From Candidatus Heimdallarchaeota archaeon LC_2 (GTDB taxonomy: Archaea; Asgardarchaeota; Heimdallarchaeia; Heimdallarchaeales; Kariarchaeaceae), in NCBI GenBank assembly GCA_001940725.1, contig MDVR01000031.1:1-29561 (forward strand): a DNA stretch of 29,561 nt, written 5' to 3'. Under the pieces are notes generated by a model. That model had not been told where the DNA came from, ran no database searches, and saw nothing but the letters and a program-made list of their open reading frames with translations. A program made the translations under genes and the position numbers. Shown here piece after piece: positions 2,266 to 24,666 of the stretch; within the stretch, counting starts at the first letter, position 1, and every line of letters starts with the position of its first letter.

Positions 2266-3573
2266 TTGAAATTTAGATTTAAATTCATTTCATTAATATT
2301 GGTATTTATCTTCGTAGTCAGTATGATGTCTTCGGGGAATAGTATCATTTTAGCTGAATCAGCAAAAGATTATTCTGCTGGAACTATTTCTGGTGCAACA
2401 ATGGCCGATTTAGCTAACATAACATACACGGATACTTCAATTTCTACATTGATGTTATCTGATGTAGTACATCGAGGATCGATGGGGTTCATAGATCGGA
2501 TAGGAATTCGATCAGCATTCTCTATTCGGTCCGCAGTCATTCTAATGGATCAATATGATTCAAGATGGCAAGAAGAACATGATCTTGAAGTATTTACAGG
2601 AGTACCCGGTTCTGAATTTACAACAGCTACCGCACTTAATCCAGAATACTTTAATTATTTTGATTCATCGACAGATGATGGAATTAGCATTCACCTTGGT
2701 CAATCAACAATAAATGATACTGATGGTGATATTGGCGGAAACAAGACTTTATCCGAGGATTCATACCGTGCTAATATAGATTATAAAAATTTCCAAACCT
2801 CGGATTATAAGGCTATTAATCAATCTGAGATTGAAAATCTGAATACTGCATATGCAGATTTAACAGATGATTTATTAGATACACCTGAAGAAGAAAACGA
2901 ATGGGACTATTCAGCAAATGATATTGTAGTCGCTGGGCACAATAATCCAGAAGCAGCAACACTTGATGTTTTGAGAAAACGTGTTGCACTTATCTTAAAC
3001 GTACTTCCAAGCCATATTAGAATTGATAACTATACTATAACGGACTTTTGGTTTGAAAGCATACTTGCAGAAGGACTGGCAGGTGATATTCGTGATGCCT
3101 ATAGCGATGCTAAGAGTGCTGGATTTATATCCCGGTTCGAGGTAACAACACCCTTGAAAGTTAGTCGTCTAGGAATGGATCAACCTATGTCTACATTCAA
3201 AAGTGATTACGCCCCAATTCCAGTAGGAGTAATTAGTCACTCAGACGTCAGACCATTTGCTGTAACAAGAGGTAATACCGCTGTAACTAACTCGATGGCA
3301 TTCAAAGATACAGTTGTCAAAGACACCTACAGTGACCACACTGGACTTAAAGAAAAGGCATATACTAACTTTTTCAAAATTGGTGCCTGGTTAGCTTCAA
3401 AGACAGGAACACAAAAAATTTATCAAAAAGCATTTATGTGGTTTGCCGGTTTAGATACTAAATACCAAAATCTGATTGTTTATGGTTTCTGGATTGTTGT
3501 GGGTCTTCTGACTGTTTTATTAGTTTGGTGGGTCCTGAAGAGAGTTAAAGGCAATCGAAGAATGAGGGGTTAA
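2266..3573 (+). CDS. Secreted C-terminally anchored protein, paralogue 1
   Basis: This 435-residue protein has a signal peptide (basic MKFRFK, hydrophobic core about 8-22, likely cleavage near residue 30). A large extracellular region follows, then one membrane segment (about 403-424) and a short basic tail, KRVKGNRRMRG. It would be held in the cytoplasmic membrane with the main part outside. Landmarks shared with the next gene are SAGTISGATMADLANI (about 37-52), IRSAFSIR, LEVFTGVPG, DGISIHLG, NDTDGDIGGNKTLSEDSYRA and a final AKSAGF. The acidic DTDGD loop resembles a calcium-binding loop, which is only suggestive. The start is TTG, supported by GGAG 11 nt upstream. I recognise no family. Confidence 0.85.
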   Translation: MKFRFKFISLILVFIFVVSMMSSGNSIILAESAKDYSAGTISGATMADLANITYTDTSISTLMLSDVVHRGSMGFIDRIGIRSAFSIRSAVILMDQYDSRWQEEHDLEVFTGVPGSEFTTATALNPEYFNYFDSSTDDGISIHLGQSTINDTDGDIGGNKTLSEDSYRANIDYKNFQTSDYKAINQSEIENLNTAYADLTDDLLDTPEEENEWDYSANDIVVAGHNNPEAATLDVLRKRVALILNVLPSHIRIDNYTITDFWFESILAEGLAGDIRDAYSDAKSAGFISRFEVTTPLKVSRLGMDQPMSTFKSDYAPIPVGVISHSDVRPFAVTRGNTAVTNSMAFKDTVVKDTYSDHTGLKEKAYTNFFKIGAWLASKTGTQKIYQKAFMWFAGLDTKYQNLIVYGFWIVVGLLTVLLVWWVLKRVKGNRRMRG

Positions 3574-3575
3574 CC

Positions 3576-4898
3576 ATGTTAAAATTAATAAAGCGTCCAA
3601 AAACATTTTTCTTACTAGTAATTCTAGTTGCTTTATTTTTTAACGCCCCATCTGTCCACATTGCAGAATCTTCGTTTAGTTATTCCGCCGGAACAATAAC
3701 CGGTGCAACCATGGCTGATTTAGCAAATATTTCATATACAAATATGGGTATTGAAGGATTAGGACTATCAGAAAATTCACGACCAAATTCATTCGGATTT
3801 ATACGCCGCGTTGCAATCAGATCAGCATTTTCTATCAGGGCAGCAGTTATTTTGATGGATGCTCATGATTCTATGTGGGAAGACAAACTCGGTCTTGAAG
3901 TATTTACAGGTGTACCAGGAACTGATTTTAGTTCTGCAACTGTCTTTACTGAAAAATATCATAATTATTTTGATTCTAAGACAGAAGATGGAATTAGTAT
4001 TCATCTTGGAGCAACAACATTAAATGATACAGACGGAGATATTTCAGGAAATAAAACTTTATCCGAGGATTCTTATCGTGCCAATGTAAATTATAAAAAT
4101 TTCAAAACAGATGATTATGGATCGTTAAATTCTTCTGAATTAGAAAACTTAGATTCTACATACACCGATTTAACAGATTTACTACTTGAGACGCCAGAAG
4201 TTCAAGCTGATTGGAAAGAAAAAGGCAATCAGATCGTAGCTGCTGGGCATTCAGATCTGGAAGATGCAACGCTTCAAGTCTTGAAAAAGAGAATTGAACA
4301 GATAGAAAACATTCCTTCAAATCAGATTAGGGTTGATAATTATACTCTCAGCGAAATTTATCTAGAACAAGTTGTTAGTGAGGAATTATCCGATGATGTT
4401 AAAGAATCCTACAACACTGCGAAGAGTGCTGGATTTTTGCCAAGCTTTAAAATAGAATCTCCTATTAAAGTTGTAACCTCAATTGTTGGAGCAACAACAG
4501 ATGCCTACAAAGGTTCTATAATAGACCAAGGAATTGGTTTTGTTAAAGATGCACCGGCAATGACTTGGGACACAATTCGAGGTTCTACTGCGGTTCAAAA
4601 TGCAATTGCTCTAAAAGATACTGTAGTTACGGGTGTTACGACGACATGGACTGGAATTAAAGATGCACCACAAACTGCTTGGAATACAATTACAGATGGA
4701 GCAAGTGCACTTAAAAGTGGAACCGAAAAACTAGTTAAAAAGGGATTTAGTTTATTTTCCTCTCTTTCTACCAAATTTAAGAATATACTCAAATGGGGTC
4801 TAGTAATCGGTGGTATACTCCTTGTGGTAGGAGTCGTTCTATATTTAAAATATCAAATGAATATTGCAAGAATGGCTACCGCACAAAGACCTGCATAA
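3576..4898 (+). CDS. Secreted C-terminally anchored protein, paralogue 2
   Basis: This 440-residue paralogue of the preceding gene begins 2 bp after its stop, with a GAGGGG ribosome-binding site inside the upstream gene, so the two are almost certainly co-transcribed and arose by tandem duplication. Topology is the same: signal peptide (core about 10-23), extracellular region and one membrane segment (about 408-426). The tail is longer here (KYQMNIARMATAQRPA). The first 290 residues keep the shared blocks, while the stretch before the membrane differs. It has two copies of a KDAPxTxWxTI motif (about 323 and 363) that paralogue 1 lacks. The function is unknown; a surface complex of both proteins is an inference from co-transcription. 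Confidence 0.85.
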   Translation: MLKLIKRPKTFFLLVILVALFFNAPSVHIAESSFSYSAGTITGATMADLANISYTNMGIEGLGLSENSRPNSFGFIRRVAIRSAFSIRAAVILMDAHDSMWEDKLGLEVFTGVPGTDFSSATVFTEKYHNYFDSKTEDGISIHLGATTLNDTDGDISGNKTLSEDSYRANVNYKNFKTDDYGSLNSSELENLDSTYTDLTDLLLETPEVQADWKEKGNQIVAAGHSDLEDATLQVLKKRIEQIENIPSNQIRVDNYTLSEIYLEQVVSEELSDDVKESYNTAKSAGFLPSFKIESPIKVVTSIVGATTDAYKGSIIDQGIGFVKDAPAMTWDTIRGSTAVQNAIALKDTVVTGVTTTWTGIKDAPQTAWNTITDGASALKSGTEKLVKKGFSLFSSLSTKFKNILKWGLVIGGILLVVGVVLYLKYQMNIARMATAQRPA

Positions 4899-8300: not shown

Positions 8301-8630
8301 ATGCGCCATGGGTGTTTCGAGGAAATTTTTTCCCCATTAAAGCCCGTCGGAAAATTAATTTTCAATTTTTCCCCTCCCGTTACAAACAATGCAGTATCAC
8401 CACTTCAGAAACAACGCCTTAATTCGTGGAAGCTCGTTAATGGTCATGACTTAACAAAATTGTTACATATCGGACTTAAATACATTTTTAGGGTGGACGA
8501 TCAAGATCTAACTCATGAGTGTACTGAAACTGCGTTAAGAAAAAGCTTTGAAATTGAAGATCTTAAATCAGCTTCCTTGTACACTTTCATGTCAAATTGG
8601 GGAAAATACTCTAAATATGTTATATTTTAA
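8301..8630 (+). pseudogene. DUF4435-like gene remnant (3' part)
   Basis: A 109-codon frame. Its last 65 residues (SWKLVNGHDLTKLLHIGL to SLYTFMSNWGKYS) match my memory of the C-terminal part of DUF4435 proteins: a VNGHDL-type motif, then 'T.LY..i..W'. Those proteins are about 250-300 residues, have a TOPRIM-like fold and often sit beside ATPases in defence loci. The N-terminal 40 residues show no such similarity, so this is most likely the tail of a broken gene joined to unrelated upstream sequence. The family call is tentative. Confidence 0.4.
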
Positions 8631-9207
8631 TTATTTCATGTATATAATATTTATAGACTTTTATTAAGAGAGCGATAGCTATACGCAACATATTCAGAGT
8701 ACAAATTTGACTAATTGGAGTATATATTGTAAATTGCCCTACAGCTGTCCAAGTTTGAAATATTGATGATCATATTGACATTTGATTTTTATACTTTATG
8801 AATAAAAAATTAATATGAGATTTCAGGATGTAAAACCACGTATTGGAAAACTTGCTGGAGTATTTTATATTTTAACATTAATTTTTATTACACCTATACT
8901 TATTCTACTCGATCCTGAGTTTGATATTAATTTCAATGATTTCGATCCTCTAAGTCAACTTGGTGTTTCTTCTGAGACAATACTGTATTACAATCTTGTT
9001 ATGCTTATAGATGGAATATTTCTTTATCTCTACTTTGATTGGTACTTAAATCAATCTCGGCCCAAATATAAATATCTAAGGGGTTGGGGGGTTTCAGTTC
9101 AAGCTGGTAAGATTGCTGGATTGGGCCAAATTGGATTGGCACTCTTCTTCAACATCGATATATTGCACAGTCTGCATATAATATCCGGAATTCTATTTTT
9201 TGGAGGT
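8440..9207 (+). repeat. 768-bp tandem duplication, copy 1
   Basis: Positions 8440-9207 recur base for base at 9208-9975. The junctions share only AT (8440-8441, 9208-9209 and 9976-9977). The unit holds the 3' end of the DUF4435-like remnant, the promoter of the membrane-protein gene and the first 131 codons of that gene. Confidence 0.95.
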
Positions 9208-9222
9208 ATGGTCATGACTTAA
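8815..9222 (+). pseudogene. DUF998-like membrane protein, truncated copy
   Basis: The first 131 residues are identical to the full-length gene at 9583. At the duplication junction the frame switches to a MVMT tail and stops, giving 135 codons instead of 288. It keeps the TATA-like box (ttttatactttatg) about 25 nt upstream, so it could be transcribed. The protein would have only about half of the membrane segments and is unlikely to work. Confidence 0.8.
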
Positions 9223-9975
9223 CAAAATTGTTACATATCGGACTTAAATACATTTTTAGGGTGGACGATCAAGATCTAACTCATGAGTGTACTGAAACTG
9301 CGTTAAGAAAAAGCTTTGAAATTGAAGATCTTAAATCAGCTTCCTTGTACACTTTCATGTCAAATTGGGGAAAATACTCTAAATATGTTATATTTTAATT
9401 ATTTCATGTATATAATATTTATAGACTTTTATTAAGAGAGCGATAGCTATACGCAACATATTCAGAGTACAAATTTGACTAATTGGAGTATATATTGTAA
9501 ATTGCCCTACAGCTGTCCAAGTTTGAAATATTGATGATCATATTGACATTTGATTTTTATACTTTATGAATAAAAAATTAATATGAGATTTCAGGATGTA
9601 AAACCACGTATTGGAAAACTTGCTGGAGTATTTTATATTTTAACATTAATTTTTATTACACCTATACTTATTCTACTCGATCCTGAGTTTGATATTAATT
9701 TCAATGATTTCGATCCTCTAAGTCAACTTGGTGTTTCTTCTGAGACAATACTGTATTACAATCTTGTTATGCTTATAGATGGAATATTTCTTTATCTCTA
9801 CTTTGATTGGTACTTAAATCAATCTCGGCCCAAATATAAATATCTAAGGGGTTGGGGGGTTTCAGTTCAAGCTGGTAAGATTGCTGGATTGGGCCAAATT
9901 GGATTGGCACTCTTCTTCAACATCGATATATTGCACAGTCTGCATATAATATCCGGAATTCTATTTTTTGGAGGT
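9208..9975 (+). repeat. 768-bp tandem duplication, copy 2
   Basis: A perfect second copy of 8440-9207. Its first part (to 9398) repeats the 3' end of the DUF4435-like remnant without a start codon, which explains why 9223-9582 holds no intact gene. The rest leads into the complete membrane-protein gene. Confidence 0.95.
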
Positions 9976-10449
9976 ATAGCCATATCACTTTTGATTATAA
10001 GTTTGGATCTTCAACACCTTTCAAATTATGAGTCTCGTATCCAACTTTTGATCCGATTAACTCTTTTTATTTGTCTATGGGGTATTTCCTATCCCTTTTC
10101 ATTCCGGTTTACTGATCATATTGGGCTTTGGCAATTTGTAATATTAATTTCGATGTGTACTTGGTTTTACATAGAAAATTCCTCTTATAAGAGAATTTCA
10201 TCTGTATTTGGAAAATCTGAACTTACTCATTATACCTATCCAATAAATTTCATATCCAAATTGGGATTAACCTTTGGTATATTACTCATTATTCTCGGAT
10301 TTGGTTTGTATATTTTCCCAGAACTTGATCCGACTCCATGTGGGGATATAACCGATCGCAAAAATTGTCATCCTATGGACAATGTGATTACAGCTGTTGC
10401 AGGGATTATTTTGGTATATATATCAAAATATATCAAACACTTTGAATAG
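9583..10449 (+). CDS. DUF998-like multi-pass membrane protein
   Basis: 288 residues with about six to eight hydrophobic segments (for example about 14-32, 60-75, 100-118, 123-145, 157-172, 182-196, 225-248 and 268-282). Landmarks such as 'DPLSQLG' followed by 'YYNLVMLIDGIFLYLYF', and the even spacing of helices, fit the DUF998 group of archaeal and bacterial membrane proteins of unknown function. Two Cys (CGDITDRKNC, near 253-262) in the last loop may form a disulphide outside the cell. A TATA-like box lies about 25 nt before the ATG (leaderless). This is the intact copy; the one at 8815 is cut off by the tandem duplication. Confidence 0.7.
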   Translation: MRFQDVKPRIGKLAGVFYILTLIFITPILILLDPEFDINFNDFDPLSQLGVSSETILYYNLVMLIDGIFLYLYFDWYLNQSRPKYKYLRGWGVSVQAGKIAGLGQIGLALFFNIDILHSLHIISGILFFGGIAISLLIISLDLQHLSNYESRIQLLIRLTLFICLWGISYPFSFRFTDHIGLWQFVILISMCTWFYIENSSYKRISSVFGKSELTHYTYPINFISKLGLTFGILLIILGFGLYIFPELDPTPCGDITDRKNCHPMDNVITAVAGIILVYISKYIKHFE

Positions 10450-10567: not shown

Positions 10568-11809
10568 TCAGAAGATGTCCTGAATTTTGATTTTTATCAT
10601 CTTTTCGATTGTTAAATCGTCAATATTCATTTCTTGCAATTTCATAATATATTCCTTATTCAAGTCATGAATTTGCATTGTGATTAATTGCTCGGGTGTT
10701 ACATTTGAATAACCCAATTTTTTTACATCCTCAATAAACTCAGGTTCAACATCATGTATCTTAAATTTCTTCAAAATATTTAATTCAATATCGGGAAATC
10801 CGAGGTTTTGGATGTCTTCAATAAATTTAGGATCAACATTATGAATCATCATTTGAACTAAGCTTCTTTTACTAACATCCTCATATCCCAATATTTTCAA
10901 TCTCGAAATAAAATTGGGTGTAACATCGTGAATTTGAAATTCAATCAAATTATTTATGGTAACATCTTGAAGTCCTGTCGCTTTAATGTTCGTTACAAAC
11001 TCTGGTGTTACATCATGAATTGCTGCTTTTCTTATTTGGTTTTGGGTTAAACCTTCAAGGCCAGCCCCAACTAAACCTTCAATAAATTCTTCATTGACAT
11101 TATGAATTTTGAATTCTTTTGCCGATTTTAGAGAAAATTCCTCGATATTCAAATTTTCATTAGATAAGATATTTTCGATAAATTCTGGATTTACATCATG
11201 AATTTTCATACTTACCAACAGCTTTAGTGAAAATGTGTCATCACCAAGTTTTTTTGCAATCTCTTGCATTTCAGCTGTGTATTCAAGAGAAACAGAATGG
11301 ATCTTCATGTTCACAAGTTGATTATACCCAATATCTGTAAAACCTAATTTGTTCAATCCTTCAATATATTCCGGATTTACATTATGTATTGTCATTTTAA
11401 TAATATTTGGTAACTGGAGATTTGTATATCCCAAATTGTGTAATTGAGAAATATACTCAATAGAGACCGTATGGAGCACCAACTTGACTTGGGTCGTAGA
11501 ATCAATATCTTCATATCCTAGTTTATTCAACTCTTTAAGATATTTCGGATCTACATTTTCCATGATCAACCGTTTCAATTCTTCATGTGTTATTTCCTCT
11601 CGTTGGCTTAGATCTTGATGTAACATATCCGTGATAAAAGGTTTAATCCTCTCCACTGTTGATGTCAACATATTGCCAGATAAGAACCCAGAATTCACAT
11701 TTACATATCTGAAATCTCTCTCTAGTTCTTTGAGTTGTTCATTTGCCATTTCAGGTGTAATTTCATTACTTACTAACTTTTCAAGTATTTCTTTACGTCT
11801 ACTTTCCAT
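10568..11809 (-). CDS. Protein of ~11 'IHxVxPEFI' repeats
   Basis: 413 residues. The first 30 (RRKEILEKLVSNEITPEMANEQLKEL) look like the short SHOCT-like helical hairpin ('iLekl..gkIt.eeA..lL..L') seen in cell-envelope stress proteins. From about residue 80 to the end there are about eleven repeats, mostly 29 residues, of the form IH-x-V-x-P-E-F/Y-I-xx-L-xx-LGY-x-D-h-x-x-x-x-L-h-x-h-K, with a half repeat at the C-terminus. Similar VTPEFVRxLRxxGY repeats follow DUF4097 or BlaR1/M56 domains in bacteria. Here nothing but the hairpin precedes them, and there is no signal peptide or membrane segment, so it is likely a cytoplasmic helical solenoid for protein binding. Repeats 4 and 5 are longer (about 32-33 residues). 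Confidence 0.75.
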   Translation of the reverse strand: MESRRKEILEKLVSNEITPEMANEQLKELERDFRYVNVNSGFLSGNMLTSTVERIKPFITDMLHQDLSQREEITHEELKRLIMENVDPKYLKELNKLGYEDIDSTTQVKLVLHTVSIEYISQLHNLGYTNLQLPNIIKMTIHNVNPEYIEGLNKLGFTDIGYNQLVNMKIHSVSLEYTAEMQEIAKKLGDDTFSLKLLVSMKIHDVNPEFIENILSNENLNIEEFSLKSAKEFKIHNVNEEFIEGLVGAGLEGLTQNQIRKAAIHDVTPEFVTNIKATGLQDVTINNLIEFQIHDVTPNFISRLKILGYEDVSKRSLVQMMIHNVDPKFIEDIQNLGFPDIELNILKKFKIHDVEPEFIEDVKKLGYSNVTPEQLITMQIHDLNKEYIMKLQEMNIDDLTIEKMIKIKIQDIF

Positions 11810-15423: not shown

Positions 15424-16662
15424 ATGGTACAAATGAGCTATGATTCTAAATCAGAAGAATTAATGGCAAAGGAGAATAAAGTTGTATCTCCTAATTATAC
15501 TCCAATCCCGGTAGTGTTATCACATGGGGACGGTATCTATGTAACCGATGTAGATGGTAAAAAATACATTGATTGTTTATCTGCTTATTCTGCAGTAAAT
15601 CAAGGTCATCTCCATCCAAAAATTATTTCAGCAGCTGAAGAGCAAATGAAAAGAATAACATTGACTTCAAGAGCTTTCTATAATGATCAATTAGGTGATT
15701 TCATTGAGAAATTATGCAATTATTCTGGTATGGAAATGGCTTGTCCAATGAATACCGGTGCTGAAGCAGTAGAAACAGGGATTAAAGTGGCACGAAGATG
15801 GGGGTACAGGAATAAAAAAGTCGAAGCAAACAAAGCAGAAATTATTGTTTGTGATGATAATTTTCACGGGAGAACAACAACAATAGTTGGATTTAGTTCT
15901 GATCCTGATAGTTATGAAGACTTCGGCCCATATCCCGAGGGGTTTAAGAGTATCCCATTTGGAGATTTAGCTGCACTAGAGACAGCTATTACATCCAATA
16001 CCGTCGCGTTTCTTGTTGAGCCAATTCAAGGAGAAGCAGGAGTGATTGTACCTCCAGAAGGTTATCTCAAAGGAGCTTATGATATTTGCAAAAAGAATAA
16101 TGTACTCTTAATTGCTGATGAGATACAAACTGGATTTGCTCGTACCGGGAAAAATTTCTGTTTCGAATTCGATGAGATTAAACCAGATTTGTTATTAGTT
16201 GGAAAGGCACTTGGTGGGGGTTTAATGCCAATTTCTGCAACACTTGGGACCAAAGAAATTATGTCTGTTCTCACAAGTGGAAGTCATGGATCTACTTTCG
16301 GAGGAAATCCACTAGCGTGCGCAATAGGCTCGGCTGCAATTGATGTTTTAGTTGAAGAAGATCTTGCAAATAAATCAATGGAATTAGGAAAATATTTTCT
16401 TGATAAACTAAAAGACTTACCATCTGAAATTGTAAAGGATGCAAGGGGTCGTGGATTGCTTGTTGCAATAGAATTCAAAGAAAGAGGAGGTAAGGCAAAG
16501 AAATATGTTATGGAAATGAAATCTAAAGGATTACTTGCTAAACAAACTCATGATACCATAATTCGGTTCGCTCCGCCATTAGTAATTACAAAAGATCAAG
16601 TCGACGATGTTGTTCAGATAATTCAATCTTCTATTGCATCAGTAGCTTCTAAAATTGAATAA
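15424..16662 (+). CDS. rocD: Ornithine aminotransferase
   Basis: 412 residues, class-III PLP-dependent aminotransferase. It contains the class pattern with Asp232 in IADEIQTG (binds the PLP ring nitrogen) and Lys261 in VGKALGGG (Schiff base). The YSAVNQGHLHP, NTGAEAVETGIKVARRW and GSHGSTFGGNPLA segments are typical of ornithine aminotransferase, which converts ornithine plus 2-oxoglutarate to glutamate semialdehyde plus glutamate. It could act in arginine breakdown or proline supply. Acetylornithine or lysine aminotransferase is a less likely reading. Its last 19 codons recur in altered form at 22258-22314. ATG 15433 (residue 4) is an alternative start. Confidence 0.92.
   Translation: MVQMSYDSKSEELMAKENKVVSPNYTPIPVVLSHGDGIYVTDVDGKKYIDCLSAYSAVNQGHLHPKIISAAEEQMKRITLTSRAFYNDQLGDFIEKLCNYSGMEMACPMNTGAEAVETGIKVARRWGYRNKKVEANKAEIIVCDDNFHGRTTTIVGFSSDPDSYEDFGPYPEGFKSIPFGDLAALETAITSNTVAFLVEPIQGEAGVIVPPEGYLKGAYDICKKNNVLLIADEIQTGFARTGKNFCFEFDEIKPDLLLVGKALGGGLMPISATLGTKEIMSVLTSGSHGSTFGGNPLACAIGSAAIDVLVEEDLANKSMELGKYFLDKLKDLPSEIVKDARGRGLLVAIEFKERGGKAKKYVMEMKSKGLLAKQTHDTIIRFAPPLVITKDQVDDVVQIIQSSIASVASKIE
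16606..16662 (+). repeat. Direct repeat at rocD 3' end, left copy (att-like)
   Basis: The last 18 codons and stop of rocD. A second copy at 22258-22314 is identical at 45 of 57 positions, including a run of 15 (tctattgcatcagta, 16630-16644). Both copies end in TAA at the same place. This is the layout left when an element integrates in the 3' end of a protein gene and supplies a replacement end. Confidence 0.75.
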
Positions 16663-16986
16663 AACCTAATATATTGATAAATTTTTTCATTTTATTTACA
16701 GTATTTCAATTTATTATATAAATTATAATCAATTAAACAACAATTGTCTACTTTCTTTCATAAATATAGGATAGAATAATTGAATTAAAGGACTAAAATA
16801 GATATTTGAACTACATCTCAAGTAACCAGATACTATCATTTATTCAATAATTATCGATTGTCGAAAGAAGAAAGGTTCATAATAGTAAGAATTATTACTT
16901 TTGCTGAAATAAAGTTAATATCCAACATGAGCTTTGATAATTTACAATTAACTTTTTAACAACAAAAGACTAGAAATGATATTAGG
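16663..16986. other. AT-rich gap after rocD
   Basis: No ORF of note. A T-rich run (16682-16687, then ttttattt) 20 bp after the rocD stop is a plausible archaeal oligo-T terminator. TATA-like stretches (tatataaattataat near 16715) occur but lie too far from the next start to assign. From about 16790 the plus strand becomes A-rich, as in the following 5.5 kb. Confidence 0.4.
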
Positions 16987-17595
16987 TTGAGTGATAATAA
17001 TGAGCCACCAAATATAGTAGTATGGACATTATCAGTTGCCACTTCAGGATTAATTTTAAAGATATTATTTGGAGGAGTGAAGTTGAATGGTATATTATTA
17101 ATAAGATACACAGATTTAACCAACGTAAATTTAGTATTAAATATATTATTTCTATTATTAGTTGGTATATTTATTGTATCGATTTTAGGAGCCATATATG
17201 AAATAAAGGAGATTAGGATGAATGGGTCAATTGGTCGGGACGTTAAGGAAGAAAGAATAAATCAAAAACAATTAGATAATCGGATTATAACATATGAGCA
17301 AGAAAGGACAACCGGTGTATACAAAATGGATATCTTGACATGTTGTTATCAATCAACAAGATTTGAATTAGATCAATGTATATGCGGAGAAAGACTGGAT
17401 TACATATTAGAAATAAATGGAGTTATACAAACAGATAATATCAGGTATTCTAAAATACTTGAGACAAAAGTGTTAGATTGTTGTTATTTGACAGCAGAGT
17501 TACAGGAAACATATTGTGTATTTGGTAGAGGACTGTCATATCCCAAACTAAAGAAATTCAAGATATTATCAATGTTATCTGATAGATGGCAGTAG
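16987..17595 (+). CDS. Membrane protein with duplicated Cys motif
   Basis: 202 residues from a TTG start (no upstream ATG in frame). Two hydrophobic segments (about 10-32 and 46-70) anchor it, and the C-terminal 120 residues should face the cytoplasm. That part holds two related Cys motifs, CCYQSTRFELDQCICG (about 117-132) and CCYLTAELQETYCVFG (about 161-176), probably an internal duplication that could bind zinc. The second copy has lost one Cys of the C-x-C pair. First gene of the segment between the rocD repeats; A-rich, with Ile mostly ATA. I do not recognise the family. Confidence 0.6.
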   Translation: MSDNNEPPNIVVWTLSVATSGLILKILFGGVKLNGILLIRYTDLTNVNLVLNILFLLLVGIFIVSILGAIYEIKEIRMNGSIGRDVKEERINQKQLDNRIITYEQERTTGVYKMDILTCCYQSTRFELDQCICGERLDYILEINGVIQTDNIRYSKILETKVLDCCYLTAELQETYCVFGRGLSYPKLKKFKILSMLSDRWQ

Positions 17596-17740
17596 ATTAA
17601 TAGATCATCTAAAATTGATTGAAAATAAATTCTAGATAATAATTAAATACAGAAATCGATGATGATCTAAATATGATCAGAATCAATAACTAATATTGCG
17701 GTTTATTCTTTTCACTTATTGTAAAAATTGTTAAAGTTAA

Positions 17741-18043
17741 AACAATATCAAAGTTCTGGGAACTGTAAATGAAACTATCATTGGTTTCATCCGAACAATC
17801 GGTGAAAATGTATTATCTGCAGAAATAAACGATCTGATTAAACGGATGTTACGTTCTACAATAAATAGTTTTTATGAGGTTTATGGTAAATAAATTAAGA
17901 GAAATAAATTTGCGTTATTTACTCATGAGTTGAATAACAAATTGGGGAGTGAAGTAAATTTCCCTTATTATAAATTTGGAATAGAAAGTCACAGAGATAA
18001 ACTTAATAGACAAATTGAGAACGGTAGAATGGTGGAGAAATAA
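17741..18043 (+). pseudogene. Decayed ORF with internal stop
   Basis: The frame 17741-18043 is coding-like on both sides of one internal TAA (17891-17893): VNETIIGFIRTIGENVLSAE and on, ending in EVYGK before the stop; then RNKFALFTHELNNKLGSEVN after it. There is no start codon before the internal stop except Met in KRMLRS. It looks like the tail of a gene of about 100 codons or more that has been inactivated. The product is soluble and helical; family unknown. Confidence 0.4.
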
Positions 18044-18078
18044 CCAAAAAATAAATTATCCTATGAGTTGAATTTTTG

Positions 18079-18699
18079 ATGACACGAAGTATAATTAATA
18101 TGATTTACTCAATGACGAACGACGGAGATTATCAAGTTAGGGGGTTGAGATGTGTTTCTGATCATGTTGTAGTCAAATTGGACCAAGAGAATATTACAGT
18201 GCCGATGTTATCAGTAAAAATTACATGTAACGTATGTGGGTGGGAAAGAAAGGGGCTTTCAGAAAAATATAGTATAAGATATAATAGAACCGATCAAACA
18301 TTTTCTCTGTTTGCACTAATAATCGCCACAGGCTGGATGACAGTAAACTATATGAAAAATTTAGCTTGGTTTTGGTGGACTTGGCCGATTTTAATAATGA
18401 TAGGGTCATTTAGTGTTATTGTATTGTCAGCAATTAGATTCGAATTCAACAATAATTCTTTTAAAATCATTCAAGGAGGATCCGAAGTAATTGATGAGGT
18501 GAGGAGTAATATAATTGGATGTGTGTTACAGGATGAAAAGGGAGGAATCATATCTCCCCGGGATCTTTCTCTCGCAAGAAAATTAATAATATTTTCAGTA
18601 GATAATACATACGAGATGAAATTGAAGAAAGAAAGAATTACGTTGGAATTATTTGCTGTAGTGCAAAAAATGCATGACGCAATGATATTTATTTACTAA
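18079..18699 (+). CDS. Membrane protein with Cys (zinc-ribbon-like) motif
   Basis: 206 residues from ATG 18079 (a TTG directly before it is an alternative). The N-terminal part has CNVCGW (about 51-56) preceded by RC at 25, a half zinc ribbon. Two close hydrophobic segments follow (about 78-95 and 98-120, rich in Trp), then a C-terminal soluble domain. Plan and Cys content recall the 202-residue protein at 16987 with domain order reversed, so they may act together. After its stop another frame stays coding-like to 18832 (KFDKKRITINRNDIKES), hinting at a frameshifted longer C-terminus. Unknown family. Confidence 0.6.
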   Translation: MTRSIINMIYSMTNDGDYQVRGLRCVSDHVVVKLDQENITVPMLSVKITCNVCGWERKGLSEKYSIRYNRTDQTFSLFALIIATGWMTVNYMKNLAWFWWTWPILIMIGSFSVIVLSAIRFEFNNNSFKIIQGGSEVIDEVRSNIIGCVLQDEKGGIISPRDLSLARKLIIFSVDNTYEMKLKKERITLELFAVVQKMHDAMIFIY

Positions 18700-18877
18700 T
18701 ATTTACTCGATTGATTATGATGTGAATAAAATCAAGTTTGATAAAAAAAGAATAACCATAAATCGAAATGACATAAAAGAAAGTCCAGCTTATTCATCTA
18801 TCGGCACGTTTTTTGGTTGTAAATTCGAGTAATATTTTAAACTAATATAAACCATTTACTGATCATTTCTTATCACT

Positions 18878-19789
18878 CTATAAGGCTAATGAAGGGCTGC
18901 GGGTACGAATAATTAAAGCCAAGATTAAGAGAAATGGTCCAAAAAAGGAAAGTCGAAAGAACGAAACCTCAATGCGGGGGCCATTGGAATCAGTATTTGA
19001 AGTAAGTGTGTTATTAGTTGCTGGATCATAAGACGTAGGAATCTGTGTGCCAGATTGAACAGGGTCATTTAGATCAAGAATTGTTAGGGAAAAATTCCCA
19101 CCGGTTAATAGACCAAATTGCCATATAAAAATAATATAATGTCCATTCGCATTATGGTACTCAAAATAATTGTTATCGTAACCAGAATTATTCATAGCTT
19201 TGAGGCTAGAATCCTTTAATACGAATAAGAAATCTACATCATCTGAGTGGGAAAGATTAAATGAAAAATCGCCTTCAAGATTGACACCCAGAAAAATTCC
19301 ATCAAACTTAGCATTAGGTCCTGGTAATGATCCGTGAGTAGTCCCAACCTCAATTTCGAGAGGATAATAGGGGTCGTCTCCCCGAATTATTCCACCAATT
19401 TTGGATATGGTGAGATTAAAATTATCAATGTTTGAGGAGCTAAATATGGAAAGGAAATATTTACCATCCATTCCCAACCTCGTGTGAATAGTATGAAAAT
19501 CGACCCTCATCAATTGGATAAATTGGAGATATTCGTCATATAAAGTGAGATTAAATTCCTTATTTTGTGTGTCAGAAATAGTGAATTCATAACTTCCATT
19601 TAGAATAATTGTATACCATATAGCACCATCATCTGCAGGTCCCGGTAATGATCCAGGTGTCGTTCCTTCAGATATACTAATTGGATTATCAGGGCTATCA
19701 CCAATCTCTCCAGATGTTTGTAATGGTGAGAATACTAAGAACTGAAAACAGATTAGTATTATTACTAATAATCGGTAAATGTCTTTCAT
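18878..19789 (-). CDS. Secreted, C-terminally anchored PPC-like protein
   Basis: 303 residues from ATG 19789. The frame is open further up, but that would overlap the divergent gene and place residues before a clear signal peptide (KDIYRLLVIILICFQFLVF). Two related beta-rich domains follow. Each opens with 'I.GTTPGSLPGP' (about 46 and 144) and continues with 'Y.F.I...' strands, as in archaeal pre-peptidase (PPC) domains. A Thr/Asn/Ser-rich linker leads to one membrane segment near the C-terminus (FFGPFLLILALII). It should be displayed on the cell surface. It is the only minus-strand gene in the rocD-flanked segment. Confidence 0.75.
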   Translation of the reverse strand: MKDIYRLLVIILICFQFLVFSPLQTSGEIGDSPDNPISISEGTTPGSLPGPADDGAIWYTIILNGSYEFTISDTQNKEFNLTLYDEYLQFIQLMRVDFHTIHTRLGMDGKYFLSIFSSSNIDNFNLTISKIGGIIRGDDPYYPLEIEVGTTHGSLPGPNAKFDGIFLGVNLEGDFSFNLSHSDDVDFLFVLKDSSLKAMNNSGYDNNYFEYHNANGHYIIFIWQFGLLTGGNFSLTILDLNDPVQSGTQIPTSYDPATNNTLTSNTDSNGPRIEVSFFRLSFFGPFLLILALIIRTRSPSLAL

Positions 19790-19920
19790 CTGAAATAATA
19801 TGAGCGTCATTATTCGATAAAACAAAATATATTTATGAAGATGCAATATTAATATACAGTGCATTTGGAAGACATTATACACTAGATCCCAATAATAGAG
19901 AATCATTTGATGACAGATCA

Positions 19921-21117
19921 ATGTTAGAAAGGACAAAGGATTATATAACGAGAACAAGTCATGGAGGATTTGTTGCATTGTCCGCACAAACAGCATCAGA
20001 TATGGCATCCTGGCATGATCTAAACAGAAATGAGTATCCCGAACTGGATGGATTGAGTGGAAGACAAATAATAGAAGCAGTTGCAGAAGGAAGATCTAAT
20101 TTGGTTATATACATATCGAATCAAATAAAGGGATTGCCATTCTTTAATAAAGATACATTGAATGAACTTGTTTCATCTCCAAGTCTAATCTTGAAGGAAG
20201 ACGGAAAATACAGAGTGGAATCCACAATAAAAAGACTATGGATAGAATATGAATATCTAAGGTTCTTATTTGACATGGAAATCCAACATTATATGACCAG
20301 TATAATTTCATATAGAGATATAGGATTTGGTTCACAAGTGTCATCTAACTCAGGTACAAATACAGATGTGGATGGAATGTATAGTAGTAATAATGAGGTG
20401 TCTGTTTCAATAAGGGAAGATGTAAAGGCAAGAGAAGCTTATGGGTCTTACTTTAAGTTGACGGAAAATCAACATCTATTGGAGGCGGAAATTGATGGAA
20501 AAGTGGTAGGTGATATGACAATAACGGAATTGTGGGATTATATGCTGTATGTATATGATACAATAGGCGGAGAAATGAAAGCCATGAGATTAGGCGACAT
20601 GGTGACTGTTGGGGGCATAACCGTAGATCGGCACCATTATAATACTATCACGCAATATTATGCAGATAACTTTCTATTCCCAGTTTCAGCATTAAATAAT
20701 CTGGTCGATTATACAGAATATCCAGTGCAGAAAATGGTTGATATAAACGTGGCATTACCAGAGGAATATGTGGATAACAGTGTACCACACTTTATTCCGA
20801 TGAGTACATCATACATAGATGATGAATTCTACATAAATGGACTTTTACCGCCACCAGAATTTAATGAGATGGCCACAGATGATGAAAATGTGCTAATTAT
20901 GTTGTTCGATACTTATAGTGCAAAAATAGCCCGAATAACAATGAATGGTATGATAACCGCATATGCCACCGCAGGTGGACTAAAAGGATGGCTATTCTCA
21001 GCGGCACAAGTGCCAATTATTACCGGAGCATGGCAATGGTCAGAGTCATATTTACCCGCCTGGGGTCACATAAAAGAGAAATATAGGGAACGAGGAGAGG
21101 CACGTTGGGGCTGGTAA
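19921..21117 (+). CDS. Unknown 398-residue protein, possibly 5'-truncated
   Basis: No signal peptide; mostly soluble and acidic, with a small hydrophobic stretch near the end (GMITAYATAGGLKGWLFSAA, about 341-360) and an aromatic C-terminus (EARWGW). The frame is coding-like upstream of ATG 19921 as far as the TGA at 19801, reading SLFDKTKYIYEDAILIYSAF and on, with no usual start codon. Either an unusual start is used, or the gene lost its 5' end when the inverted PPC-like gene came to lie beside it. ATA-rich codon use like its plus-strand neighbours. I recognise no family; a toxin or effector role is only a possibility. Confidence 0.6.
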   Translation: MLERTKDYITRTSHGGFVALSAQTASDMASWHDLNRNEYPELDGLSGRQIIEAVAEGRSNLVIYISNQIKGLPFFNKDTLNELVSSPSLILKEDGKYRVESTIKRLWIEYEYLRFLFDMEIQHYMTSIISYRDIGFGSQVSSNSGTNTDVDGMYSSNNEVSVSIREDVKAREAYGSYFKLTENQHLLEAEIDGKVVGDMTITELWDYMLYVYDTIGGEMKAMRLGDMVTVGGITVDRHHYNTITQYYADNFLFPVSALNNLVDYTEYPVQKMVDINVALPEEYVDNSVPHFIPMSTSYIDDEFYINGLLPPPEFNEMATDDENVLIMLFDTYSAKIARITMNGMITAYATAGGLKGWLFSAAQVPIITGAWQWSESYLPAWGHIKEKYRERGEARWGW

Positions 21118-21234
21118 TAAAAAAACGATAATAAACAAGTCATTACTAAGCCATCAATAACATTAATCAATAAGGAATACCAAATATAATAAGTTTATAA
21201 ATCAAAATGGCAATAATTATTTGTAAGAGATCTA

Positions 21235-22251
21235 ATGAAAGAATTAGTGGAATTAATGAGGAAACCGAAAAATGAGTATGATGAGACATATGGAAAAGAG
21301 TTATATCTAAATTCAATAAATAATACAGCAATACTGCCGTACAAAGAAGTAATAGAAACATATCCAGAGATCACTAATATCTACTTATCGCCTATGTGGA
21401 AGGAGGTAAATATACAAAAATTATCAGATGAATTAGACATACCAAGGTACCATTCTCCAGGAGAAACAGAGTATATTGGAGTGGAAAATGAAGTAGCAGT
21501 AATTATGGATAATACATGTGGGGTAGTAATGAGATATCTGGGAGAATTTAAAGAGTTAGAAAAGCTAATTATAGTTAGAAATAAAGTGTTCGATAATATA
21601 ATGGAAGAGACCGGTAAGTTAATTAAACTAAAAAAATTTTTGTATATGAATAATCAAGTAGTGAAAATCAGACAATATAGTGAAGATGCTGAGGAGATTC
21701 GTAGAGAAAATGGAGACGACGTGGAATCAAAAGAATTAGGAATTAGAGCGATAGGAAATCTATTATATCTAGAAGAATTAGAATTAGTAAATATTGGAAT
21801 AAAAGAAATACCTGAAGAGTTAAGTCATCTTCAAGAATTAAGAACAATTAATTTATCATTAAATGAGGGAATAGATCTAACAAATGTGAGAGGTTATAAA
21901 AATTTACAACATGTAAAAATGAGTAATATAGACGTAGAAGAAATACCAAATTTCGTGATTGAATCCAAAAGAACATTAAAGACATTAGACATCAGTAATA
22001 ATCATTCAATAGATATAGAGTATGTTACATGTTTAACAAAATTAGAATCAATTAATCTTCGAGGAATAAAGAGAATAAATAATTTACATGATATAATGGA
22101 TATGTCGAATATAAAACGAATATATATCAATAGTGACAAGATGAAAGGAATAAATCATAAGAAAATCGAAAGTGGGGAACTGATTATGCAGGAAGGGAAA
22201 ACATGGGCCGAGCATGTGTGGTTAGAAGAAGAATATGAAGAAGAAAAATGA
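21235..22251 (+). CDS. Leucine-rich-repeat protein
   Basis: 338 residues, no signal peptide. The N-terminal 90 residues are acidic and mixed. From about 95 to 310 there are irregular leucine-rich repeats of 22-24 residues; the clearest are ELELVNIGIKEIPEELSHLQ, ELRTINLSLNEGIDLTNVRG, TLKTLDISNNHSIDIEYVT and KLESINLRGIKRINNLHDI. The C-terminus is Glu-rich (EEEYEEEK). LRR arcs bind proteins; the partner is unknown. A TATA-like box (gtttataaatc, near 21190) precedes the start. The in-frame codons directly after its TGA are the right-hand copy of the rocD end, so its 3' end lies exactly at the segment border. Confidence 0.8.
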   Translation: MKELVELMRKPKNEYDETYGKELYLNSINNTAILPYKEVIETYPEITNIYLSPMWKEVNIQKLSDELDIPRYHSPGETEYIGVENEVAVIMDNTCGVVMRYLGEFKELEKLIIVRNKVFDNIMEETGKLIKLKKFLYMNNQVVKIRQYSEDAEEIRRENGDDVESKELGIRAIGNLLYLEELELVNIGIKEIPEELSHLQELRTINLSLNEGIDLTNVRGYKNLQHVKMSNIDVEEIPNFVIESKRTLKTLDISNNHSIDIEYVTCLTKLESINLRGIKRINNLHDIMDMSNIKRIYINSDKMKGINHKKIESGELIMQEGKTWAEHVWLEEEYEEEK

Positions 22252-22257
22252 AGTATT

Positions 22258-22314
22258 GAAGTTGCTGAGATAATTAAATCGTCTATTGCATCAGTAATTA
22301 CAATAAATCAATAA
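22258..22314 (+). repeat. Direct repeat of rocD 3' end, right copy (att-like)
   Basis: Reads EVAEIIKSSIASVITINQ-stop, against DVVQIIQSSIASVASKIE-stop at the end of rocD. Differences include a synonymous change (TCG/TCT for Ser), so this descends from a coding copy. The longest identical run is 22282-22296. No other part of an aminotransferase gene precedes it, so it is a detached gene end. Confidence 0.75.
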
Positions 22315-22473
22315 AGTTCAACTTTATTATTTAATTACTGGATTTCTATTCATGAAAACAATTTAATACATAAAATATAATTAAATTATATTCATTTGTC
22401 TATTTTTACACATAATTATAGGATTTTTTCACTATATTATTATGTTTGATTGCAATGTTATGTATTGAGCCAC

Positions 22474-23067
22474 ATGGAATTCTCCCCTGTTTTTAAAATT
22501 GACAAGTTAGATTTCAAGATACTTCGTGAGCTAAAAGTTAATTCCAAAAGATCAATAAGACAATTAGCTTCTAGAATAAATGAAAGTCATTCCACAGTTT
22601 ATAATAGAATTATTCGTTTAGAATCATCAGGAATAATTAAAAAGTGGACTGTAGCGATTGATTACTCTTTATTGAATTTGGATATTATTTTTTATGTCTC
22701 TATAAACATTGAATATGAGGGTTATGGAGATTCACCTTTGAAATTTAATTGTTTTAATATATGCCAAGAAATTATGCAATTGAAAGGTGTGTGCGAGTTA
22801 TCAATGATTAATGGGGAATTCGACATATTGGCCAAAGTCAGAACGAACTCACTTCAAACTACTGCTGAAATAATAATTGATCAAATCAGAATCATACCTG
22901 GAGTGTCTAAGGTTGTAAGTAATCATTGTTACCAAACTATACTAGAAGAATGTAATATTGACAAATTTGATTTCCATGAGGTTTTTTTAGATATTAAAGA
23001 GAATGAAATCAATAACGAGAAACTTGCAAAAGCTAAATTTGCTGAATTATTTGGCGATATGCACTAA
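22474..23067 (+). CDS. Lrp/AsnC-family transcription regulator
   Basis: 197 residues from ATG 22474 (a TTG eight codons earlier is in frame). The N-terminal winged helix is typical: KLDFKILRELKVNSKRSIRQ, then LASRINESHSTVYNRIIRLE and SGIIKKW. The C-terminal RAM-type alpha-beta domain follows, with GVCELSMINGEFDILAKVRT. Such proteins form dimers or octamers and often sense amino acids. The C-terminus is extended by about 35 residues beyond the usual 150-160, rich in Lys and Glu. No operon partner; its target may be its own promoter or nearby genes. Confidence 0.9.
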   Translation: MEFSPVFKIDKLDFKILRELKVNSKRSIRQLASRINESHSTVYNRIIRLESSGIIKKWTVAIDYSLLNLDIIFYVSINIEYEGYGDSPLKFNCFNICQEIMQLKGVCELSMINGEFDILAKVRTNSLQTTAEIIIDQIRIIPGVSKVVSNHCYQTILEECNIDKFDFHEVFLDIKENEINNEKLAKAKFAELFGDMH

Positions 23068-23138
23068 TGATATTTTTTGGATAAAAAATTTAATTAAAAC
23101 CATTACAAATAATTGAATTTCAAAGACATTTATATTGC

Positions 23139-23348
23139 TTATCTGGTTAATAAATCAAAATAAAATAGTAAATAATATACAAGAACAATTGAGACAAATG
23201 AAAACATTGCCAATATTATTGCACAAGAACCTAAGAAGCAAAAACTATCTTTGACCTTTTCTGTATTGCATAACTTATTTTTTATTTTTGAAAAAAAAGT
23301 TATTGGATTGCTTATATTTTTTCCACATTCAGAACAGACTGTACTCAT
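23139..23348 (-). CDS. Small zinc-ribbon membrane protein
   Basis: 69 residues. The N-terminus has CSECGK (Cys5, Cys8), half of a zinc ribbon, with two more Cys further on (about 27 and 37). One long hydrophobic segment follows (about 39-65) up to a short LLTR end. Many archaea have such zinc-ribbon plus membrane-helix proteins of unknown role. A TATA-like aataaataag lies about 20-28 nt before ATG on the minus strand, in keeping with a leaderless start. Confidence 0.5.
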   Translation of the reverse strand: MSTVCSECGKNISNPITFFSKIKNKLCNTEKVKDSFCFLGSCAIILAMFSFVSIVLVYYLLFYFDLLTR

Positions 23349-23477
23349 TTTAATTCTTACTTATTTATTGATAAAAATAAATAAAAATCTTTTTCTGATA
23401 ATTAAGGCTGTAGCACTAAAATTTTATAATTTCAGATAAACTCGAAAATATTGAACGCTCATCCCTTTTTTCATTAC

Positions 23478-23486
23478 AAAAAAAAA
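23478..23486 (-). terminator. Oligo-T terminator after hypD
   Basis: On the minus strand this is a run of nine T, 53 bp after the hypD stop, typical of archaeal termination. No strong hairpin precedes it. Confidence 0.45.
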
Positions 23487-23538
23487 TAGAAGATTATTAT
23501 TTCTTAAAAATTCAAAACTATTGATTTATCACAATCTA

Positions 23539-24666
23539 TTATGAAGTTGTCATTTGAAAATTCATGTAAGTTGCCCGAATTCTACATGTGCCTTCATCAC
23601 TTACCATACATGGACCAATTGCAGTTTCTGGAGTACATTGTCTTAAGAAATGTGGACAATCTTCAGGTTCAACCTTTCCAAGTATCACCCCCCCACACTT
23701 ACATCCCTTCGGTAAATCATTTGTAACAATAATTGGTTCATCTAGTAGATTTCTTGCATTGTGATTAGAAAACTCAGCATTTAATTCATAACCTGATTTT
23801 GGAATTATCCCAATTCCTCTCCATTTAGCATCTACTATATCAAATACATTTTTCATAGATTCAATAGCAGAACGGTTTCCTTCTTTTTTGACAACTTTTG
23901 GATAAGCATTATATACATGAGCATCACTCTCGAGTATTTGTTCAAGAGTTTTGTCTAAGGCTATTAGGAACTCAATACTGTTAAATCCTCCAATCACACA
24001 TGGAATTAGATATTTCTTTGGAAAAATTTCATATGGATTTGTACCTATAATTGTTGAAACGTGCCCTGGTAATACATATCCATCGATATCAAATTCAGGG
24101 TCATTACATAGTAGATGCATTGCCGGAGGTACTAATCTGAAATCGGTAAGTACAAAGAAATTTTCAGGAAGTTTTTCCTTTTCAAGTACAAATGATGTCA
24201 TAGGGGCAGTTGTTTCAAAACCTATTCCTAACCAAATAAATTTCTTATTTGGATTTTCCTTTGCATATTGCACAGCATCCGAGACTGAATAAACAACCCG
24301 AATGTCATTCCCCATTGCTTTAGATTGATTTAAAGTCATTAAAGAATGGTCCGGGACCTTCAACATATCGCCGAATGTTGTAATAATATTCCCTTCATCG
24401 GCCAATTTAATTGCTGTCGTAACATGTTCTGAAGGACAAACACAAACAGGGCATCCTGGTCCTGAAATTATTCTAAGATCATTCGGTAAAAGTGACCTGA
24501 TACCAGAACGTGATACCGTGGCTTCATGGGTTCCACAAATATGCATTATTTTTAACGGACGATTAATTTGTTCAAATTTTGTAAGTATTGATTTGATGAC
24601 GGCTTTTGCCTTGTGTTTTAAATTACTTGTTGGCATTGAATAATCAATAAATTTGGAACTACTCAT
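23539..24666 (-). CDS. hypD: [NiFe] hydrogenase maturation protein HypD
   Basis: 375 residues, the family's usual size. HypD is the scaffold on which, with HypC, the Fe(CN)2CO group is put together. All three signature regions are seen: CGTHE (44-48), GPGCPVCVCP (69-78, with the redox-active Cys pair), and the C-terminal Cys set that binds a [4Fe-4S] cluster (CKCGG ... DCPHFLRQC ... GPCMVSDEGTC). It lies 8 bp downstream of hypC and both are read from the promoter between hypC and hypF. No hydrogenase structural genes are in view. Confidence 0.97.
   Translation of the reverse strand: MSSSKFIDYSMPTSNLKHKAKAVIKSILTKFEQINRPLKIMHICGTHEATVSRSGIRSLLPNDLRIISGPGCPVCVCPSEHVTTAIKLADEGNIITTFGDMLKVPDHSLMTLNQSKAMGNDIRVVYSVSDAVQYAKENPNKKFIWLGIGFETTAPMTSFVLEKEKLPENFFVLTDFRLVPPAMHLLCNDPEFDIDGYVLPGHVSTIIGTNPYEIFPKKYLIPCVIGGFNSIEFLIALDKTLEQILESDAHVYNAYPKVVKKEGNRSAIESMKNVFDIVDAKWRGIGIIPKSGYELNAEFSNHNARNLLDEPIIVTNDLPKGCKCGGVILGKVEPEDCPHFLRQCTPETAIGPCMVSDEGTCRIRATYMNFQMTTS

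Follow-up and report, generated by a model that had tools for sequence, protein, structure and literature searches.

The prophage e14 of Escherichia coli lies in icd, the end of which is duplicated over 165 bp with 12 nucleotide exchanges, as far as the account in PMC11148124 goes, and a putative integrase gene, intE, is ascribed to it (PMC11148124, PMC6379469). Among the integrated elements of Thaumarchaeota, 14 of 68 are reported from 3′-distal regions of protein genes, and the direct repeats of integrated elements are given there as having a median length of 17 bp in Thaumarchaeota and lengths of 29-69 bp in crenarchaea (PMC6563490). For the Heimdall group, the close archaeal kin of eukaryotes, few mobile elements have been described (PMC8813620); one of them, HeimM2 of Ca. 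Heimdallarchaeum, is an 8-kb element with a leucine-rich repeat (LRR) gene and a homing endonuclease, located between 16S rRNA and tRNA-Arg genes, and HeimM2-like elements and aloposons are characterized in that source by a tRNA or rRNA target and by a homing endonuclease or giant tandem genes (PMC8813620). The present study examines a segment of about 5.5 kb that lies behind the ornithine aminotransferase gene rocD of Candidatus Heimdallarchaeota archaeon LC_2 (GenBank assembly GCA_001940725.1, contig MDVR01000031.1, positions 1 to 29,561 of the forward strand; this whole stretch of 29,561 nucleotides is referred to as the window). An original prediction, made from the letters and open reading frames (ORFs) of the window, had read a second copy of the rocD end on the far side of this segment as the trace of an integrating element. 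We find that the segment probably forms a unit whose origin differs from that of its surroundings, with a duplication of the rocD end and of the intergenic DNA 3′ of it at its borders.

Direct repeat at the 3′ end of rocD

The final 19 codons of rocD (16606-16662) recur in the same phase at 22258-22314, with 45 of 57 bases equal and 15 identical bases in a row, just as originally predicted; the next best place for the 57-mer in the window, on both strands, agrees at 31 of 57 positions. The same pair was picked up independently by a general repeat search of the window (repeat D6). When the best 57-bp pair of each diagonal was ranked, using diagonals at least 200 bp off and setting identical pairs aside, five diagonals reached at least 40/57, and the rocD-end pair was second (45) after the tandem paralogues at 2266 and 3576 (50); the remaining three (40/57 each) all fell within the repeat gene at 10568-11809. 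Three first-order Markov shuffles of the window contained no pair of at least 40/57.

The repeat is longer than the 19 codons first reported. Similarity carries on along the same ungapped diagonal for about 110 bp past the stop codon (68 of 113 positions, versus 57 of 113 at the best other one of 29,047 offsets), and in local alignments of the noncoding parts alone, 7 and 2 of 1000 shuffles scored as high. The top-scoring stretch of the diagonal, ungapped and identical at 113 of 167 positions, defines the two copies listed in Table 1. Its left edge is sharp and lies inside rocD, similarity ending left of 16606, and rightward it fades before the Lrp-type gene. Ahead of the right copy there is no further aminotransferase sequence, in agreement with the earlier claim, since 982 and 997 of 1000 shuffles, under two scoring schemes, scored as high as the comparison of 16400-16605 with 22050-22257; likewise, no coding remnant of the Lrp-type gene was found after the left copy, where 158 to 598 of 1000 shuffles scored equally high. 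Because the repeat reaches about 110 bp past the gene, the inserted unit would occupy approximately 16773-22257 (5.5 kb). The target gene is still complete despite the inserted segment, at 412 aa and with its TIGR01885 match above cut-off. At 22249-22314 the detached rocD end also follows in the frame of the LRR gene, two codons after the TGA of that gene, which may be a coincidence (1 in 3).

The 12 differences within the 57 bp are spread over codon positions 1, 2 and 3 as 5, 4 and 3, with no third-position excess of the sort shown by two coding copies, and divergence amounts to 12/57 (21%) in the coding part and 45/113 (40%) in the noncoding part. Both the spread and the lower coding divergence are as expected if the copies were once identical, rocD was constrained and the rest drifted. 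Small as these numbers are, they suggest an old event and a true duplicate, not the import of a gene end that had already diverged. The 15-base identical run was considered as a crossover core and rejected, given that 12 mismatches leave such a run by chance with P = 0.20.

Strand composition of the segment

A change-point scan that made no use of the repeats set its borders at the same places. The scan followed the purine share of the + strand at third-codon and intergenic sites, was based on our own gene table, and excluded the final 1.2 kb of the window as well as an exact 768-bp duplicate. Its best stretch, 16768-22278, has a purine share of 0.601 inside versus 0.480 outside and a support of 61.5 nats, which none of 200 block permutations reached (permutation maximum 19.6; for all but 40 of the 200 permutations the scanning grid was coarser than that used for the data). 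The 2-nat limits of the two borders are 16718-16968 and 22239-22328. The same borders were recovered with the gene at 27273 unmarked (55.6 nats, permutation maximum 21.1), and they moved by no more than 3 bp when the decayed ORF of the segment was omitted. Repeat and composition are independent evidence with coinciding borders. Among scans of purine, G, A and A+T, only purine sets both borders sharply: with the gene at 27273 marked, G alone gave 17755-22288 and A alone 16287-24508, and with it unmarked, the G and A+T scans were dominated by that gene.

Third-position purine on the + strand is 0.59-0.67 in the five intact insert genes and 0.39-0.54 in 18 flanking genes, with 0.47 in a nineteenth, and the intergenic share is 0.555 in the insert and 0.484 and 0.490 in the flanks. 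The only minus-strand gene of the insert, 18878-19789, has a share of 0.62 on the + strand, its own coding strand being pyrimidine-rich. Since this gene carries the + strand excess too, transcript bias does not explain the pattern, as it would give the opposite sign there. Among 209 genes from 22 loci of relatives, a sample in which loci L003 and L013 overlap L099 and L092 and some genes are counted twice, a coding-strand purine share of at most 0.40 occurs in 0.5% and one of at least 0.59 in 6.2%. The value of the minus-strand gene and the distribution in relatives thus assign the skew to the DNA strand, as expected of DNA with a fixed strand asymmetry elsewhere, and it is a single minus-strand gene that stands behind this assignment.

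Origin of the segment

The most economical account, which we favour on balance and with some reservation, is that the segment is an integrated element, or the remnant of one, behind rocD. An extrachromosomal element, whether itself about 5.5 kb long or a larger one of which only a remnant is left, would have entered at the rocD 3′ end by a single crossover of the Campbell type, probably site-specific, with the last 19 codons of rocD and the roughly 110 bp behind them as the recombining sequence. One copy would thereby complete rocD and the other, detached, would come to stand before the Lrp-type gene, which would formerly have lain some 135-160 bp downstream of rocD. The detached end would have decayed since, and the recombinase may have been lost, may have acted in trans, or may be one of the unrecognised ORFs. 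The proposal of integration at a gene 3′ end is supported in part: composition borders fall on the repeats, an intact rocD lies on one side and a detached end on the other, and two of the five intact insert ORFs are orphans. Profiles from Pfam, NCBIfam, PHROGs and PADLOC recognised no recombinase in these five ORFs, bearing out the earlier remark that no integrase is seen; one of an unrecognised type may be among the orphans.

The missing recombinase is one of several points that weigh against integration, and others come from the relatives. RocD shares 80% identity with its counterpart in an archaeal metagenome-assembled genome (MAG; locus L013) and 76, 72 and 68% with those in Heimdall/Kariarchaeota MAGs (L001, L002 and L003). 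A scan of genome contigs with RocD gave 15 loci, four of them archaeal, and none of the 14 other window proteins was detected in those four (E 1e-3). The nearest relatives place rocD in another neighbourhood; at L013 and L003 it lies near what we take, from reading the translations, to be ITPase-like, aminotransferase-V-like and S3ae-like genes, an ABC ATPase and seryl-tRNA synthetase. The empty site to which the original prediction had looked, rocD followed directly by the Lrp-type gene, was accordingly not found in these relatives, whose neighbourhood is not shared, and because the neighbours differ, we infer the former rocD-Lrp order only. No reuse of the site was seen either: a class search gave 58 genomes, and in none of the 20 whose rocD loci were compared, with at most 18 kb of sequence behind the gene, is there a second rocD end (best 32/57). 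The downstream sequence is shorter than 6 kb in seven of these loci; in six it falls short of the 5.6-kb spacing, and four of those six belong to the eight nearest. In further rocD loci only Lrp-type matches turned up among the window proteins, and in six distant Heimdall genomes (G038, G040, G041, G042, G043 and G047) such a match precedes rocD on the same strand by no more than 260 bp, measured from one matched stretch to the other, which is the opposite order to that of the window. A purine-rich gene run behind rocD in G003, considered as a second example, was dropped, as it consists of ordinary genes (an ABC ATPase and seryl-tRNA synthetase, by reading).

Composition and gene distribution supply further points on this side. 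The A+T scan gave nothing above the permutations, and neither A alone nor A+T marks the segment; purine-rich coding-strand runs are present in ordinary genes of L003 as well. For the minus-strand gene 18878-19789, relatives occur in 5 of 227 phylum genomes (23-40% identity), three of which are among the nearest by RocD, and in coding-strand codon usage the gene groups with the flanking genes, apart from the other insert genes. This grouping arises because its coding strand is pyrimidine-rich and fits the strand bias, but it fits a host origin of the gene as well.

The two repeat copies are themselves host-like in their noncoding purine share (0.46 over 117 bases on the left, 0.44 on the right). 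Had an att-type crossover taken place near the left edge, part of the left copy would derive from the element, and the host-like value of this copy therefore also speaks against an integrated element. It agrees with a tandem duplication of rocD and a downstream block, after which most of the second copy was lost and the genes in between were acquired separately, the rocD end being no integration site. Such a duplication would account for a repeat that passes the gene into intergenic DNA, and the window has an exact one at another place (from 8440, at spacing 768). We consider it unlikely, though credible, as it needs several independent steps, both composition borders fall on the repeat edges, and neither an Lrp remnant after the left copy nor a further rocD remnant before the right one is found.

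The host-like copies would equally follow if a staggered break behind rocD had been filled in on both sides and foreign DNA captured between the resulting copies. A long target duplication of this kind would make a recombinase unnecessary, and the lower divergence of the coding part (12/57, beside 45/113 in the noncoding part) fits copies identical at birth. At about 167 bp the copies would be long for staggered ends, and we regard this conjectural mechanism as distinctly improbable. To a similarly low degree we would entertain the idea of an undescribed class of Asgard-archaeal element that carries a target-gene end and its 3′ flank and uses a novel recombinase, encoded by the orphan ORFs, or one supplied in trans, its purine-rich strand reflecting asymmetric extrachromosomal replication.

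Gene content of the segment

Table 1 Features of the rocD locus and the segment behind it
Feature	Position	Strand	Evidence
rocD, ornithine aminotransferase, 412 aa, intact, target gene	15424..16662	+	TIGR01885, 544 bits (cut-off 378)
Left direct repeat: last 19 codons of rocD with stop, and ~110 bp downstream	16606..16772	+	113/167 to 22258-22424
Segment of different strand composition (inserted unit)	16768..22278	.	Purine change-point scan
ORF, 202 aa, hydrophobic N-terminal stretch and Cys-rich C-terminal part (by eye)	16987..17595	+	Orphan
Decayed ORF, ~94 codons, one in-frame stop	17759..18043	+	Translation
ORF, 199 aa, CxxC and hydrophobic stretches (by eye)	18100..18699	+	Two database relatives
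Repeat-domain protein, signal-peptide-like start (by eye), 303 aa from internal ATG	18878..19789	-	
ORF, 398 aa, orphan, longest insert ORF; open frame extends upstream to at least 19816	19921..21117	+	
Leucine-rich repeat protein, 338 aa	21235..22251	+	Pfam LRR_4, 31.2 bits (cut-off 27)
Right direct repeat: detached rocD end and downstream DNA, leading to Lrp-type gene	22258..22424	+	113/167
Lrp/AsnC-type regulator, right flank	22450..23067	+	Pfam HTH_AsnC-type and AsnC_trans_reg, both above cut-off

Two of the insert ORFs are without relatives in the searches made. The 202-aa ORF matched no family in Pfam, NCBIfam, PHROGs or PADLOC, none of the 227 phylum genomes and no viral contig (the large protein database was not searched with it), and the 398-aa ORF, compared with 2797 candidates drawn from 5.8 billion proteins, matched none but itself at the sensitivity of that search and had no match in the 227 genomes; its AlphaFold model is not usable (pLDDT 33.6). 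Empty results in the 227-genome search carry little weight without a positive control. For the decayed ORF, Pfam gave nothing, PHROGs gave weak matches only (best E 0.037), two candidates were not homologues, and the fetched loci held no match. The 199-aa ORF has two database relatives, both of 199 aa and 100% and 86% identical, which begin at the ATG of 18100, the start in the ORF list being the TTG at 18076; weak matches were seen in 2 of the 227 genomes. No Pfam, NCBIfam or PDB sequence match was obtained for 18878-19789.

The claim that the insert genes are unlike their surroundings holds for their discrete composition; it holds less well for the two genes with a wider distribution, namely 18878-19789, with its relatives in 5 of 227 genomes, and the LRR gene, for which generic LRR matches occur in at least 139 of 227 (candidates were partly scored in many). 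Both distributions, together with the 86% identical relative of the 199-aa protein, which comes from an ENA record, would suit ordinary, vertically inherited host DNA with fast-evolving genes, the repeat then being an old and unrelated small duplication. With composition borders that coincide with the repeat edges and a strand skew that extends to the minus-strand gene, we hold this to be very unlikely.

Marks of known element types were sought in addition to recombinases. No replication or capsid protein was recognised among the insert ORFs; viral contigs held no relative of four of them (all but 18878-19789), tblastn against phages found no relative of two, phage and plasmid DNA gave no match, and a search for att-like patterns found no viral contig. 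Casposons carry Cas1 and PolB genes and terminal inverted repeats; the ORFs contain no Cas1 or PolB family, and no inverted-repeat pair of at least 24 nt joins the two borders. As to HeimM2-like elements and aloposons, the window has no tRNA and no Rfam match, and the longest insert ORF has 398 aa.

Other features of the window

To the right of the segment, beyond the Lrp-type gene, follow what we take, from reading the translations, to be hypD, hypC and hypF of hydrogenase maturation. At 8440-9977 the window contains an exact tandem duplication (a 770-bp match at spacing 768), either recent or an assembly artefact, as a result of which the gene at 9583-10449 (weak DUF998 match) has a truncated 5′ copy at 8815-9222. 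The minus-strand gene 10568-11809 encodes a degenerate tandem-repeat protein with DNA spacings near multiples of 87-96 bp and weak Pfam matches only, and 2266-3573 and 3576-4898 are tandem paralogues with a signal peptide and a C-terminal membrane segment by eye and no Pfam match above cut-off. The contig end (28395-29561) holds exact direct copies and inverted arms of 165-186 nt that are 97-99% complementary, all of them copies of the 5′ part of a gene that resembles an amidohydrolase by eye, and looks like an amplification or an assembly chimera. That the rocD repeat is itself an artefact, as these exact and inverted copies might suggest, or a chance similarity, is hardly credible, as its diagonal stands out in the window and its copies differ at 54 of 167 positions and are therefore no assembly duplicate.

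Comparison with described elements

The locus offers a defined target, the rocD 3′ end, and defined borders, and the coincidence of a strand-composition change-point with a direct repeat provides a way of finding remnants that does not depend on an integrase. Should intact relatives exist, they would reveal if small elements that lack a known recombinase occur in Asgard cells.

As in cryptic integrated elements of archaea, direct repeats hold the 3′ end of a target gene, and the DNA between them is distinct in composition, from which a separate origin would follow. The likeness to the cryptic elements of Thaumarchaeota, as far as PMC6563490 describes them, lies in an archaeal host, cryptic genes, direct repeats and the position of some of them at 3′-distal regions of protein genes; the repeats there are short, whereas that of the rocD segment spans 167 bp, is diverged and accompanies no recognised recombinase. 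HeimM2, in the description of PMC8813620, is likewise small, belongs to the Heimdall group and carries an LRR gene, but its rRNA/tRNA-Arg site and homing endonuclease both lack a counterpart at rocD. The resemblance to e14 is that both lie in the 3′ part of a metabolic gene, have about 165 bp of its end duplicated, and show an intact frame on one side and a pseudo-end on the other; in the e14 sources cited above, the copies differ by 12 nucleotides in 165 bp within the gene and intE is present, whereas the rocD copies differ at 54 of 167 positions, run past the stop codon and flank a segment with no recognised integrase. For now the rocD segment stands outside any integrase-defined family, yet it is probably what is left of a small mobile element of a common general kind.

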